From the NCBI GenBank assembly GCA_015709495.1, contig CP054189.1, positions 2,666,001-2,730,000 on the forward strand: a DNA stretch of 64,000 nucleotides. The letters are read 5' to 3'. This DNA is from Chthonomonadaceae bacterium (GTDB lineage Bacteria > Armatimonadota > Fimbriimonadia > Fimbriimonadales > Fimbriimonadaceae). How positions within the stretch are numbered: position 1 is the first letter of the stretch; the number at the start of each line of letters is the position of its first letter. The position numbers were made by a program, and so were the translations under genes. Shown here piece after piece: positions 59,147-64,000 of this stretch. Under the pieces are notes generated by a model. That model made no database searches. It was not told where the DNA came from and saw only the letters and a list, made by a program, of their open reading frames with translations.

Positions 59147-60088
59147 ATGGAACTATCATCGAATTGGAAGGTCTTGGGACTCGCCGTAGTCGTGGCGAGC
59201 GCGATCGGGTGTGGCACGTCGACGATTCCGTCGAACGGCGGAACTTCGGAAAAGGCGAAGGAGGAAAGCGCTGCGCCTACCGGCACGGCGGAGCTGTCGG
59301 AGCGTTCGGACTCCGTAGAAGTGGCCAAGGCAGCAGAAGCACCCGAAAAGAAGGAAGACGCCAAGCCTACCGGCCAAGCGGATTCCGCGAAGTCTGAGGA
59401 ACCTGCGAAGAAGGATGCCCCCTCGGCAGAGCCCCCTCGAAACGCGCAACGCGGGAACCCTCCGGGTGACCGACCGGGTGGCCAGCCCCAAGGTGGCGCG
59501 GGACGAGGCGGGTCGGGGTTTGGAGGCGGCCTCGCGTTCCTAGTGGGCAGCGAGGAAGTCCGTAAGGAACTGAACCTAACCGACGATCAGATCAAGAAGA
59601 TCCAGGCGGCTATGCCCCAGCGCCCCGCTCAGGGTCAGGGAGGGTCCGGACCCTCGCGCGAGGAGATGCAAGCTCAGTTTGCAGAGGCTCAAAAGAAGAT
59701 CGAAGCCATATTGACCCCGGCTCAGAAGACCCGCGTCAAAGAACTCCAATATCAGATGATGGGACTGCGGGCCTTCACCAATGACGCTGTGGTCAAGGAG
59801 TTGGGGCTTTCAGAAGACCAGGTCGAGAAGATTCGGGGACTGCTTCCTCAGCGGCGGCAAGGCGGCGAAGGGAGCTCCGGAGCAGGGCAAAACGTCACCC
59901 CTGAAGAGCGGCAAAAGCAGCGGGCGGAGGCGATGAAGAAGGCCCTCGAAGTCCTTAAGCCCGACCAACGCGCCAAATGGGAGAAGATGATCGGCAAGCC
60001 GTTTGTGTTCCCTGCGCCCTCGCGGGGGACGACGGGCCGGCCGGGGGGTTCCGCTCCAGGTTCGGGCGGCGTCGACCGAGACGCCTAG
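59147..60088 (+). CDS. Lipoprotein with two Spy/CpxP-like repeats
   Basis: A 313-residue protein with a lipobox at about residues 18-22 (ASAIGC), so it is likely lipid-anchored. Residues 24-125 are Ala/Glu/Lys/Pro-rich and then Gly/Arg/Pro-rich, probably disordered. Two helical repeats follow: LTDDQIKKIQ with LTPAQKTRVKELQ (about 140-205), and LSEDQVEKIR with LKPDQRAKWEKM (about 220-290). This helix pattern is that of LTxxQ-motif chaperones such as Spy and CpxP. It ends with a 4-base tail-to-tail overlap with gcvT. Confidence 0.75.
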   Translation: MELSSNWKVLGLAVVVASAIGCGTSTIPSNGGTSEKAKEESAAPTGTAELSERSDSVEVAKAAEAPEKKEDAKPTGQADSAKSEEPAKKDAPSAEPPRNAQRGNPPGDRPGGQPQGGAGRGGSGFGGGLAFLVGSEEVRKELNLTDDQIKKIQAAMPQRPAQGQGGSGPSREEMQAQFAEAQKKIEAILTPAQKTRVKELQYQMMGLRAFTNDAVVKELGLSEDQVEKIRGLLPQRRQGGEGSSGAGQNVTPEERQKQRAEAMKKALEVLKPDQRAKWEKMIGKPFVFPAPSRGTTGRPGGSAPGSGGVDRDA

Positions 60089-61164
60089 CGCCTGAGGAAC
60101 CGCTTCCCGACGATCTTGCCGGGTTCGAGCTTTCCCCTGACGTCGACTTCGCACGTCGAGTCCAATGCCACCGAGGAGTCGAGAAGGGCAAAGGCGATCG
60201 AACGGCCCAGCGTGGGCGAATACACCCCGCTCGTAATCCGCCCCACCTCGCTTCCTGAAACCCAGACTGGCATCTCCGGCTGAAGGAGGCGTTTGGAGTC
60301 GAGCACCAGCCCGAAGATTTTCCGGGGCGTGCCTTCGGCTCTCGCCTGCGCGATGGGGTCGCTGCCGAGGAAAGGCTTGGTTTTCGAAATCACCCAGCCC
60401 AAACCGGCCGCGATGGGGCTGAGGTCGTCGCTCAATTCGTGGCCGTAAAGAGGCAGGCCCGCTTCCACTCTGAGCGTGTCTCTCGCCCCGAGTCCACAGG
60501 GGACCACTCCCACGCTCCTCAACCGCTCCCACAGCTTGGGGCCGTCTTCCGCTGAGCAGATGAGTTCAAAACCGTCCTCACCGGTGTAGCCTGACCTTGG
60601 AGCAAGGCAGCGCACCCCCCCGATTTCGGCCTCCACCAAACCGAAAAGCGGAGCGGAAAGGAGAGCGTTCGGGTTGCTCGACATCCCTGCCAACAGGTTG
60701 GCCGCCTGCGGGCCCTGGACGGCGATCATCGCCGTTTCGTCCGTGCGGTCCTGAATCTCCACCCCATAGGAGTTGTGCGCCCTGAGCCACGCCACGTCCT
60801 TGTCGTGGTTCGCCGCGTTGACCACCATTCGGAAGAACTCGCCGCTGACCCGGTAGAGAATGATGTCGTCGACGCATCCACCGCGATCGTTGGGCAGGAG
60901 CGAGTACTGCCCTGCCCCGTCCCCCAGCTTCGAGACGTCGTTGGTGGTGATCCACTCGACGAACTCGAATGCGCGCTCTCCTCGCAGTTCGAGGCGGGCC
61001 ATGTGGCTCACGTCGAACATCCCCGCGCCGTTTCGAACCGCCAAAGTCTCGGCGATGATCCCCTGATACTGGACGGGCATGTCGTACCCGGCGAACGGAA
61101 CCATCTTCCCGCCGAGGGCGACGTGCGAACCGTGGAGGGGCGTGCGGAGGATCGTTTCACTCAT
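60085..61164 (-). CDS. gcvT: GcvT, aminomethyltransferase of the glycine cleavage system
   Basis: T-protein that releases ammonia from aminomethyl-lipoyl H-protein and makes methylene-tetrahydrofolate. The 359-residue length is normal: GKMVPFAGYDMPVQY, MFDVSHMARLELRG (folate site Asp), QYSLLPNDRGGCVDDIIL, APRSGYTGEDGFEL, GARDTLRVEAGLPLYGHEL, and SGVYSPTLGRSIAFAL. Other gcv genes are absent nearby. A TATACT (61172-61177) lies seven bases before the ATG, suggesting a leaderless message. It is divergent from the regulator at 61272. Confidence 0.96.
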   Translation of the reverse strand: MSETILRTPLHGSHVALGGKMVPFAGYDMPVQYQGIIAETLAVRNGAGMFDVSHMARLELRGERAFEFVEWITTNDVSKLGDGAGQYSLLPNDRGGCVDDIILYRVSGEFFRMVVNAANHDKDVAWLRAHNSYGVEIQDRTDETAMIAVQGPQAANLLAGMSSNPNALLSAPLFGLVEAEIGGVRCLAPRSGYTGEDGFELICSAEDGPKLWERLRSVGVVPCGLGARDTLRVEAGLPLYGHELSDDLSPIAAGLGWVISKTKPFLGSDPIAQARAEGTPRKIFGLVLDSKRLLQPEMPVWVSGSEVGRITSGVYSPTLGRSIAFALLDSSVALDSTCEVDVRGKLEPGKIVGKRFLRR

Positions 61165-61207: not shown

Positions 61208-61236
61208 TTGACGTGAATTTCTATCTACTATATAGT
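61208..61236 (+). promoter_or_regulatory. Sigma-70-type promoter of the small sigma-region-4-like gene
   Basis: TTGACG at 61208-61213, 17-base spacer, TATAGT at 61231-61236. Transcription should start near 61243, inside the second palindrome region. The -10 is contained in the first of two palindromic operators. Confidence 0.75.
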
Positions 61237-61260
61237 AGACATATAGTTACTATATAGTAG
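61225..61260 (+). promoter_or_regulatory. Tandem palindromic operators
   Basis: Two near-identical sites: CTACTATATAGTAG at 61225-61238 (perfect 14-base palindrome) and TTACTATATAGTAG at 61247-61260, with the perfect 12-base core TACTATATAGTA at 61226-61237 and 61248-61259. Centres are 22 bases apart, two helical turns. The first covers the -10 and the second covers the transcription start and reaches the ribosome site region (GAGGA). This is a classic repressor arrangement. Confidence 0.75.
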
Positions 61261-61271
61261 AGGACCACCCC

Positions 61272-61727
61272 ATGACAGAACAAGACCTTTCGTTTGTTGC
61301 CGACGCGCTGCTGTCGCTATGCGACCGGAACGACGACGCTCCCTTTTACACCGAAGACATCATGAGGTCGAAGCTCAAGCGAGCTGAGATCAAAGACCCG
61401 AAGGCAGGGCACTGCGTTTTGCCTCGCGCCGAGAGCGAGCTGTTTCGGCGGGAACTCAACGAGCTTTTCGAGGCAGCGGGCCTTACGGAGCGGCAATATG
61501 AGGTGCTGCTCCTTCGGCTGGACGGATGGACGTTCGAGGAGATCGGCGCGAAGGGTGGCCACAGCAAGCAAGGCGCCCAGAACATTTTTCTTCAGGCGCT
61601 CAAGAAGCTTGTGCGCACTTTCCGCGTCTATCGCTTCAGAGGACTCAGCGACGTGTATGAGCAAGAGACCCACCGAGGGGCCCGATTTCGGCCCTTTGGT
61701 ACAATGGGAGCGCAACCGCGCACTTGA
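61272..61727 (+). CDS. Small HTH protein resembling sigma-factor region 4
   Basis: A 151-residue protein. Residues about 70-118 (LTERQYEVLLLRLDGWTFEEIG then KQGAQNIFLQALKKLVRTF) form a helix-turn-helix like sigma region 4 or a LuxR/ECF tail. There is no recognisable sigma region 2. The N-terminal 65 residues are charged and helical; the C-terminus is basic. The start ATG 61272 has GAGGA seven bases upstream. The two palindromes at its promoter suggest autoregulation, either by this protein or by another repressor. The zinc-ribbon TPR gene starts 46 bases downstream. Confidence 0.7.
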   Translation: MTEQDLSFVADALLSLCDRNDDAPFYTEDIMRSKLKRAEIKDPKAGHCVLPRAESELFRRELNELFEAAGLTERQYEVLLLRLDGWTFEEIGAKGGHSKQGAQNIFLQALKKLVRTFRVYRFRGLSDVYEQETHRGARFRPFGTMGAQPRT

Positions 61728-61772: not shown

Positions 61773-63062
61773 ATGAGCATGGTGATTTGCAGCCACTGTC
61801 AGACGGCTAACAGCTTGGATTCCCACTTTTGCAAGCAGTGCGGCAAGGAGGTCCCGGAGGCTGAGCGCCAGCAAGCGCAAGCGAAGCTCGCCGAGTTGAT
61901 TTCGGAGGGGTATAAGGCTTTCAGCGAGGGGCGAACGGAAGAAGCGCTCCTGATTTCGGAAAACGCCCTTGGCTCGGAGCCTTCGAACGCGAACGCGCTC
62001 TCGCTCAAGGGGATGTGTTTCGAGCGCAACAAGCGGTATGCGGAAGCGCTCGAGTGCTTTGAGCAGGTCGTCCGGCAAAACCCCGATTCCGCTCTCGACC
62101 GCATCAAAGTCACGCACCTTCGCAACACGATTTCCGCCAAGTTGGTGGAGGAGCCGCAAGCTCCCGACAAGCGACGGATTCTGCTGGCCTCGATCTCAGC
62201 GACGGTCCTTGTCGTCGCAAGCGGAATCGCGATCGGCGGATTTGCCAATTGGGGCAATCCCGATGCAGGCAAGCGGACGGCAGAACTCAGTAAGCCCCAG
62301 CCCAACCCATTCGACCTCGATTCGAGGCTTGCGGCAGGGGGCGGCGCTTCGACTTCCAATTCCGGCGAGAGCCCGGCGGCCCAACCCCAAGGCGGTTCAG
62401 GTTCAGGGAGCGAAGCGACGGGAAGCGCGCTTCCGCCACCTTCGGGCAGGCAGGTTCCGGGGATCAGCGGCTCGCGGACTCCACCTTGGCAGCCCCCCGA
62501 ACTGGGCGCGGGGGTCGTCGTTCGGCCGGAGGGCGCGATTCCCGGTGGATCGGATTCGGGCGCAGCGACAGGAGGCGGATCGGGGACTTTACCGAACGTC
62601 GGAGGCAGCACAGGCGGCAACGCGGGATCGAACCGCGGACCCGACTCGCTCGATCCGGGTTTCGGCGCTCAAACGCCGCCAGATACGGGCATCATCGACA
62701 TTCGGGTGAGCAAGCCGGACGTAACCGGGGGCGGGCAATCGGTCGACCCCCAGACGAGCCGGAATCAAGCGGAGGCGCTGCTACGGACCGCGCGCGATTT
62801 GTTCCTTGCCGGCAAGTTCGCGGACGCCGCAAGAACCTACGAAGCGGCTCTTCGCGCTGGATCGGACCCCGCGTCGACGAACCAGCGACTTGCCCAATGT
62901 TACGCGAAGCTGGGAAGGAAATCCGACGCCCTCAACGCCTACACAAAGGCGATCGCATCGTATGAAAGCCAGATTGCGAGCGGTACGGGCAACGCGTCGG
63001 TGTTGAAGGCCTCGTTGGATGCCTGCAAGCAGTCGTTGCTGGTGCTGCGTGGCGGAGGATAG
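61773..63062 (+). CDS. Membrane protein with zinc ribbon and two TPR regions, unknown
   Basis: A 429-residue protein. Residues about 5-25 hold a zinc ribbon, CSHC and CKQC. Residues about 35-130 are a cytoplasmic TPR region (GRTEEALLISENALGSEPSN, RYAEALECFEQVVRQNPDS). A membrane helix spans about 135-158. The next 180 residues are low-complexity Gly/Ser/Pro/Thr, and residues about 335-415 are a second TPR-like region (AEALLRTARDLFLAGKFAD) outside the membrane. ATG 61773 is chosen; ATG 61779 is close by. It probably bridges cytoplasmic and periplasmic partners. It is four bases from the next gene. Confidence 0.7.
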   Translation: MSMVICSHCQTANSLDSHFCKQCGKEVPEAERQQAQAKLAELISEGYKAFSEGRTEEALLISENALGSEPSNANALSLKGMCFERNKRYAEALECFEQVVRQNPDSALDRIKVTHLRNTISAKLVEEPQAPDKRRILLASISATVLVVASGIAIGGFANWGNPDAGKRTAELSKPQPNPFDLDSRLAAGGGASTSNSGESPAAQPQGGSGSGSEATGSALPPPSGRQVPGISGSRTPPWQPPELGAGVVVRPEGAIPGGSDSGAATGGGSGTLPNVGGSTGGNAGSNRGPDSLDPGFGAQTPPDTGIIDIRVSKPDVTGGGQSVDPQTSRNQAEALLRTARDLFLAGKFADAARTYEAALRAGSDPASTNQRLAQCYAKLGRKSDALNAYTKAIASYESQIASGTGNASVLKASLDACKQSLLVLRGGG

Positions 63063-63065
63063 CCT

Positions 63066-64000
63066 GTGACTTGGAGGCTCTCCAGCGTCTTTCTCCTTCT
63101 CTTCTCTTTCGCAGCCTTTTCGCTCGCCGTCCCCACGCTCTTCGTCGTCCAACTCGTCAGCCCCGAGTCTGCGGAAGCTCCTGTCGACGTACCTGCTGCG
63201 AGCGCACTATCGGCCCACATCGACGACGACGGCAGGGTCTTCCCCATCATTTGGAGCCTCACTGACCCGATTTTTCGCGCCGCGGTTGACAACGGAACGC
63301 TGAAGAACCTTCCCGAGCGCCCCGACCGGGACTCGGCTCTCCGCGCGGCGCAAACCCTGAAAGCTCAATACACCCTCATTTTCACCGCTCGGACGCGGGA
63401 AGGACATGTCGAGTTCGAGGCATGGTTGTTTGAGGGCCGCCGCCAGGTGTGGACGGACAAGCGGGAACTCATGTCGTCCGGGACGGGGAACGATCTCAGC
63501 AACGCGCTCGATACGGTCGGAAGAACTTACGCGATGCTCTTGGGGGCGGGCCCCTTCAAGAACCTCCCTCAGCAGCGAAAAATCGCGACTCCCGACCCTG
63601 GGAGCGGGCAGAGGCCCAACGTGAGCCTCGATCCTGGGTCGCTCGAAGACGACGCAGGCAAGGAGCTTGTGGCCGAGGCTGCCAAGCAGATCAAGGCCGG
63701 AAAGTTCGCCCTCGGAATCAACTTGCTCCGCGACTGCGTGGACCTTGCGCCCTTCGATATCACGCGGCGCAAAGCGCTCTGTGTCGCGCTCCTCGGGGCG
63801 CAACTCAACCTCGAAGCAGCGCGGGAAGCCCGATTGGCTTCGGAGATGTTTCCTCAGGATATTGAGCTTCGGGTGATCTCGGCCCGCGGATGGCTCGGGG
63901 CGGGCAACCAAACGGAAGCGCTGACCGACCTGAACGAAGCGATCGCGCGCAAGCCGGAAAGCCCTGAGACGCGCCTACTGCTCGGCGAGGTGCAGTTGCT
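63066..64000 (+). CDS. Exported TPR-type protein, truncated by the window end
   Basis: An open frame from GTG 63066, four bases after the previous stop TAG, to the last base, covering 311 codons without a stop. The N-terminus (LSSVFLLLFSFAAFSLAVP) is a signal peptide or anchor. A domain of about 120 residues follows (FPIIWSLTDPIFRAAVDNG, AQYTLIFTARTREGHVEFEAWLFEG), then TPR-like helices from about residue 205 (GKFALGINLLRDCVDLAPFD, AREARLASEMFPQDIELRV, ALTDLNEAIARKPES). It forms one unit with the upstream TPR gene. The family is not recognised. Confidence 0.7.
   Translation, partial: MTWRLSSVFLLLFSFAAFSLAVPTLFVVQLVSPESAEAPVDVPAASALSAHIDDDGRVFPIIWSLTDPIFRAAVDNGTLKNLPERPDRDSALRAAQTLKAQYTLIFTARTREGHVEFEAWLFEGRRQVWTDKRELMSSGTGNDLSNALDTVGRTYAMLLGAGPFKNLPQQRKIATPDPGSGQRPNVSLDPGSLEDDAGKELVAEAAKQIKAGKFALGINLLRDCVDLAPFDITRRKALCVALLGAQLNLEAAREARLASEMFPQDIELRVISARGWLGAGNQTEALTDLNEAIARKPESPETRLLLGEVQL

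Follow-up and report, generated by a model that had tools for sequence, protein, structure and literature searches.

The promoter of a small gene for a helix-turn-helix (HTH) protein in this Armatimonadota genome carries a short palindrome twice, raising the question of which regulator acts there and to what end. We examined the locus in a stretch of 64,000 nucleotides (the window), in the rest of the genome, and in related genomes of the order and phylum. The sequence contains, on the forward strand, a -35 element TTGACG (61208-61213), a -10 element TATAGT after a 17-bp spacer (61231-61236), a ribosome-binding site AGAGGA (61259-61264) and the ATG of the HTH gene at 61272; TTGAC is found at the same place in most orthologues from the organism's own family. 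The palindrome TACTATATAGTA is present at 61226-61237 and 61248-61259 with 22 bp between centres. A motif scan of the window at up to two mismatches returned these two copies only, with 0.03 expected from shuffles and no shuffle reaching two or more, which confirms the pairing described in the initial annotation. The genome-wide search that it proposed, run over 2,897,187 bp at no more than one mismatch, gave the two window copies as sole matches. It was also right to place the operator across the -10 element and transcription start of a gene for a small sigma-region-4-like protein that has no region 2. An RNA element was considered as a candidate at the locus, with no match in Rfam.

The gene itself (61272-61727, forward strand), identified as an open reading frame and by profile and orthologue searches, encodes a sigma-region-4-like HTH protein of 151 aa for which we propose SOS control. 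Its only profile match is to sigma-70 region 4 at residues about 69-113, below the Pfam cut-off (Sigma70_r4_2, E=2e-4), and no sigma region 2 was detected, the matches being confined to the region-4 part at residues about 45-119. A fold search assigned a probability of 1.00 to region 4 structures at E of about 0.2, on a low-confidence model built from two sequences (mean pLDDT 54.6, poor outside the HTH), and these fold matches would support a region-4-like core only. The protein also has a family-specific conserved N-terminal part and a C-terminal YPYRGLxxVYRxExxRG stretch. It has a putative region-4 HTH (residues about 69-113) in common with small sigma-4-like proteins such as YlxM, Tfx and the 'positive control sigma-like factor', but is set apart from them by the missing region 2, by scores under the curated cut-offs, by its own N- and C-terminal parts and by the SOS box. 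Relatives of the gene were found in 43 of the 61 genomes of the order, and a profile search added no orthologue to the single-query set while separating these 43 (E<1e-38) cleanly from ordinary sigma factors, all of which scored above 1e-8. The remaining 18 genomes, some of which are incomplete assemblies, either lack the HTH gene or are missing the assembly segment in which it would lie. Across the phylum the family is represented in 68 of 201 genomes at E<1e-8.

Each copy of the palindrome consists of two half-sites back to back, TACTAT followed directly by ATAGTA. Together the copies form the ends of a central dyad, each with one outer half-site added, so that palindrome 1 is an outer half-site plus the left half of the dyad and palindrome 2 is the right half plus an outer half-site. 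The inner convergent pair, ATAGTAGACATATAGTTACTAT at 61232-61253, is the unit that relatives conserve. When a dyad was counted as present at 14 or more of 22 matches to the order-wide consensus ATAGTAGACATATGTCTACTAT, it was found upstream of 42 of the 43 HTH-gene orthologues, where it covers the -10 element and start of a TTGAC promoter; in the organism's own family it usually lies 19-31 bp from the start of the TTGAC -35 element. The layout comprises half-sites GTAGAC and GTCTAC around a rigid 4-bp centre, and the window dyad differs from the consensus at three bases, none of them in the left half. The outer half-sites persist in another genome of the species and, in part, in the sister species; further out they are rarely kept. 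The comparison of orthologous upstream regions therefore upheld the site and not its paired form: evolution has kept one central dyad, and a functional unit of two sites acting cooperatively is not supported. The outer half-sites, judged by their distribution, may have local importance but do not form the general unit. Pairing between the two self-complementary 12-mer copies could also form a 5' UTR hairpin or attenuator, so that the repeat would act in RNA. Much of the repeat lies at the -10 element and start site and is thus transcribed only in part, relatives keep one dyad and not two copies, and several target genes are apparently leaderless with their ATG inside the dyad; we regard the probability of an RNA function as next to negligible.

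According to the initial annotation, the HTH protein binds both palindromes cooperatively, represses its own gene and serves as a self-limiting switch for the tetratricopeptide repeat (TPR) genes that follow. The site adjoins the gene in the same 42 of 43 orthologues, the encoded protein has a DNA-binding HTH, and TPR genes do follow in the organism's own family. These are a zinc-ribbon/TPR protein gene (61773-63062, forward strand), possibly co-transcribed and syntenic in the own family only, and a second TPR protein gene (63066-64000, forward strand), which extends past the window end and is syntenic in most own-family genomes examined. Zinc-ribbon/TPR genes lie 3' of the HTH gene in 8 of 8 own-family genomes versus 0 of 11 genomes examined from other families, a distribution that does not support a switch dedicated to TPR genes. 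The divergent gcvT gene (aminomethyltransferase by profile match; 60085-61164, reverse strand) gives no sign of belonging to such a switch. The site of an autorepressor should be found only where the protein occurs, but the dyad also marks other genes, and 8 of the 18 genomes in which no HTH gene was detected have it, in several instances at genes for DNA repair. In addition, the operator of the HTH gene is CGAAC-N4-GTTCG where LexA is canonical, and the operator type switches with LexA outside the order. Autoregulation is thus unsupported and this whole reading highly improbable, although the HTH protein could possibly bind this promoter alongside LexA. As the dyad persists in genomes where no HTH gene was detected, retention of the site does not depend on the protein.

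We then asked which genes share the dyad. At up to three mismatches it was found in 27 of the 61 genomes of the order, with 1 to 6 occurrences per genome, and a reversed-pattern control gave 0 in all 61. A sequence-only covariance model of the 22 positions performed weakly (E-value 0.2 for the site in the window itself), and a weight matrix with dinucleotide shuffles took its place; the matrix was built from HTH-gene operators only and then run on other promoters against the shuffles. Scores above shuffles were obtained for 25 of 30 recA promoters (p<=0.05) and for 18 of 20 imuB-like promoters (p<=0.01), that of the organism's own genome included, with 3 of 115 control windows positive; the genomes are related, and these counts overstate independence. 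In the organism's own recA promoter the weight matrix did not find a dyad. Further dyads precede genes for ImuB-like Y-family polymerases, spore-photoproduct-lyase-like (splB-like) radical SAM proteins, methylpurine-DNA glycosylase and DinB-family proteins. The organism's own genome has three full sites, one before imuB (G000:C1:1134411), one before the HTH gene and one between DUF3276 and ftsZ; it also has one weaker dyad. Because the dyad is shared with DNA-repair genes and is found in genomes without the HTH gene, it is best read as an SOS box.

Several individual sites merit description. The intergenic dyad of the organism's own genome (478185-478206, L054) lies between a DUF3276/PurA-like gene and ftsZ, and dyads are found near mraZ-like genes in G016 and G018 (L073, L074); the ftsZ- and mraZ-adjacent dyads hint at a link with cell division. 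At several targets the start codon falls inside the operator (L054, L064, L065, L071, L072, L080), with ATGTCTACTAT reading as Met-Ser-Thr-Ile, an arrangement that suggests leaderless SOS transcripts. The weaker dyad stands directly behind TTGAC upstream of phage-type genes (L275:6748-9214, G000:C1:2834747 onward) encoding a head maturation protease, a virion structural protein and a major head protein, flanked by genes of housekeeping appearance. A homologous head maturation protease (41% identity) lies under the dyad in G021 (L072). The L275 locus could represent either a domesticated capsid cassette that damage induces or the remains of a prophage.

The identity of the protein that binds the dyad was approached through the LexA lineages of the phylum. 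A lexA gene was found in 59 of the 61 genomes of the order (TIGR00498 above cut-off), and the LexA of this organism (L095) keeps the Ala-Gly cleavage site and the catalytic Ser/Lys residues; its recognition helix, SLRGVTVHLDAL, is not the SSSSTVHAHL of the B. subtilis-like type. Outside the order the HTH gene mostly stands under one of two boxes, the dyad or CGAAC-N4-GTTCG, and some genomes have neither. The dyad precedes the gene in families f8 (9/9), f10, f12 and f37 and in part of f21, and in G065 it forms the perfect palindrome ATAGTAGACGTATGTCTACTAT. CGAAC-N4-GTTCG, matched at 9 or 10 of 10 positions, is found there in f7, f38, f39, f40 and the remainder of f21; it was present in 9 of the first 11 non-f8 genomes, with 0.037 expected per promoter, and in four more afterwards. 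LexA was of the SLRG type (helix SLRGVTVHL) in all ten dyad genomes whose LexA was examined and of the canonical SSSSTVHAHL type in all nine CGAAC-box genomes examined, so that box type co-varies with the recognition helix (Fisher p = 0.003, among genomes that are not independent). In a LexA tree the SLRG type forms one clade (99/94) and the canonical type a separate one (100/99). Both types occur together in eight outgroup genomes, where the SLRG-type lexA promoter itself has GTAGAC-N4-GTCT behind TTGAC every time; these eight promoters tie the dyad to SLRG LexA independently of what is assumed for the HTH protein. In f40 and f21 genomes we also observed a third LexA type (helix SPNG(V/I)AKHL), which has a palindrome of its own, GGTGTAA-N4-TTACACC, in its promoter (L244, L246, L250).

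The lexA promoters of the order itself are less regular. Scores above chance were obtained for 17 of 28, with the left half-site (TTGACAgGTAGACAAAT) kept and the right half usually decayed or shifted. With the weight matrix, the organism's own lexA promoter did not exceed chance; no dyad was found in the f8 lexA promoters, and the canonical lexA genes had no CGAAC box within 250 bp. At these promoters, autoregulation of lexA may have changed or the start sites may lie elsewhere. Several lexA promoters have GTAGAC-N18-GTCTAC half-site pairs of unusual spacing (L089, L095, L102, L107, L111). The partial match of the order's lexA promoters to the half-sites lends something to the idea that another damage regulator, either of the PafBC/WYL type or a non-LexA S24-type repressor, binds the dyad and that LexA is a bystander. 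We consider this very unlikely, given that SLRG-type lexA genes outside the order have the dyad in their own promoters in eight of eight cases, that box type tracks LexA type, that LexA is nearly universal in the order, and that the canonical LexA box likewise consists of two half-sites around a 4-bp centre.

LexA binding to the dyad very probably represses the HTH gene, making the feature an SOS box. Comparison of genomes showed that the dyad is conserved, has further targets, occurs where the HTH gene was not detected and varies in step with the recognition helix of LexA; from this we infer physical binding of LexA, induction by damage and a role for the HTH protein. A fixed-spacer palindrome overlapping the target promoter, as a LexA operator should be, is what is found at the HTH gene. 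A LexA dimer of the SLRGVTVHL type would occupy the dyad at 61232-61253 and obstruct RNA polymerase at the -10 element and start site. Upon DNA damage, RecA filaments would stimulate self-cleavage of LexA, and the HTH gene would be derepressed along with imuB and other repair genes. The outer half-sites make the operator of this genome appear as two palindromes, and may provide some added binding.

The dyad resembles the canonical Gram-positive-type LexA box CGAAC-N4-GTTCG of Bacillus and Actinobacteria, as both are palindromes with a fixed 4-bp centre over a promoter, and both regulons include recA and error-prone polymerases among their targets. The canonical box also stands at the same HTH gene in other Armatimonadota families. 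The two systems differ in the half-site, GTAGAC (or GTATAC) versus CGAAC, and in the helix, SLRGVTVHL versus SSSSTVHAHL. LexA targets motifs with rigid spacers, and changes of LexA motif have been modelled as gene duplication, divergence and takeover, with 17 LexA motifs known in 2021 (PMC8565304). Two features found here are like that model, namely genomes with two or three LexA lineages in which the diverged ones have their own box, and a clade that retains only one diverged lineage. From these sequence comparisons, the dyad appears to be the box of a second LexA lineage, one that took over the SOS response; the order looks like a finished takeover and the outgroup families like its intermediates, if the history is reconstructed correctly. 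In the literature that we searched we found neither a study of LexA in Armatimonadota nor a description of the dyad box.

The function of the HTH protein is less certain. It would most likely be a second-tier regulator acting on promoters or on RNA polymerase, which is the simplest guess. More specifically, and somewhat doubtfully, it could be an SOS-induced protein that works as a partial sigma factor or co-sigma factor, either steering RNA polymerase towards a second wave of damage genes or closing down growth promoters. UviA of Clostridium is a LexA-controlled sigma-like regulator, described as a complete sigma factor of group 5 for bacteriocin genes. It and the HTH protein have in common, likened here by description, that a sigma-like regulator stands under LexA.

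These results provide an SOS box and a first outline of the regulon for an Armatimonadota order whose LexA motif we did not find described in the literature searched. Relatives with two or three LexA lineages, and with the same target under either box, make the takeover route testable on living intermediates. The results also point to a phylum-wide SOS gene: throughout the phylum the HTH gene has stayed under LexA control, irrespective of the LexA lineage that governs it, which suggests that this gene is important in the damage response and has a core role there.
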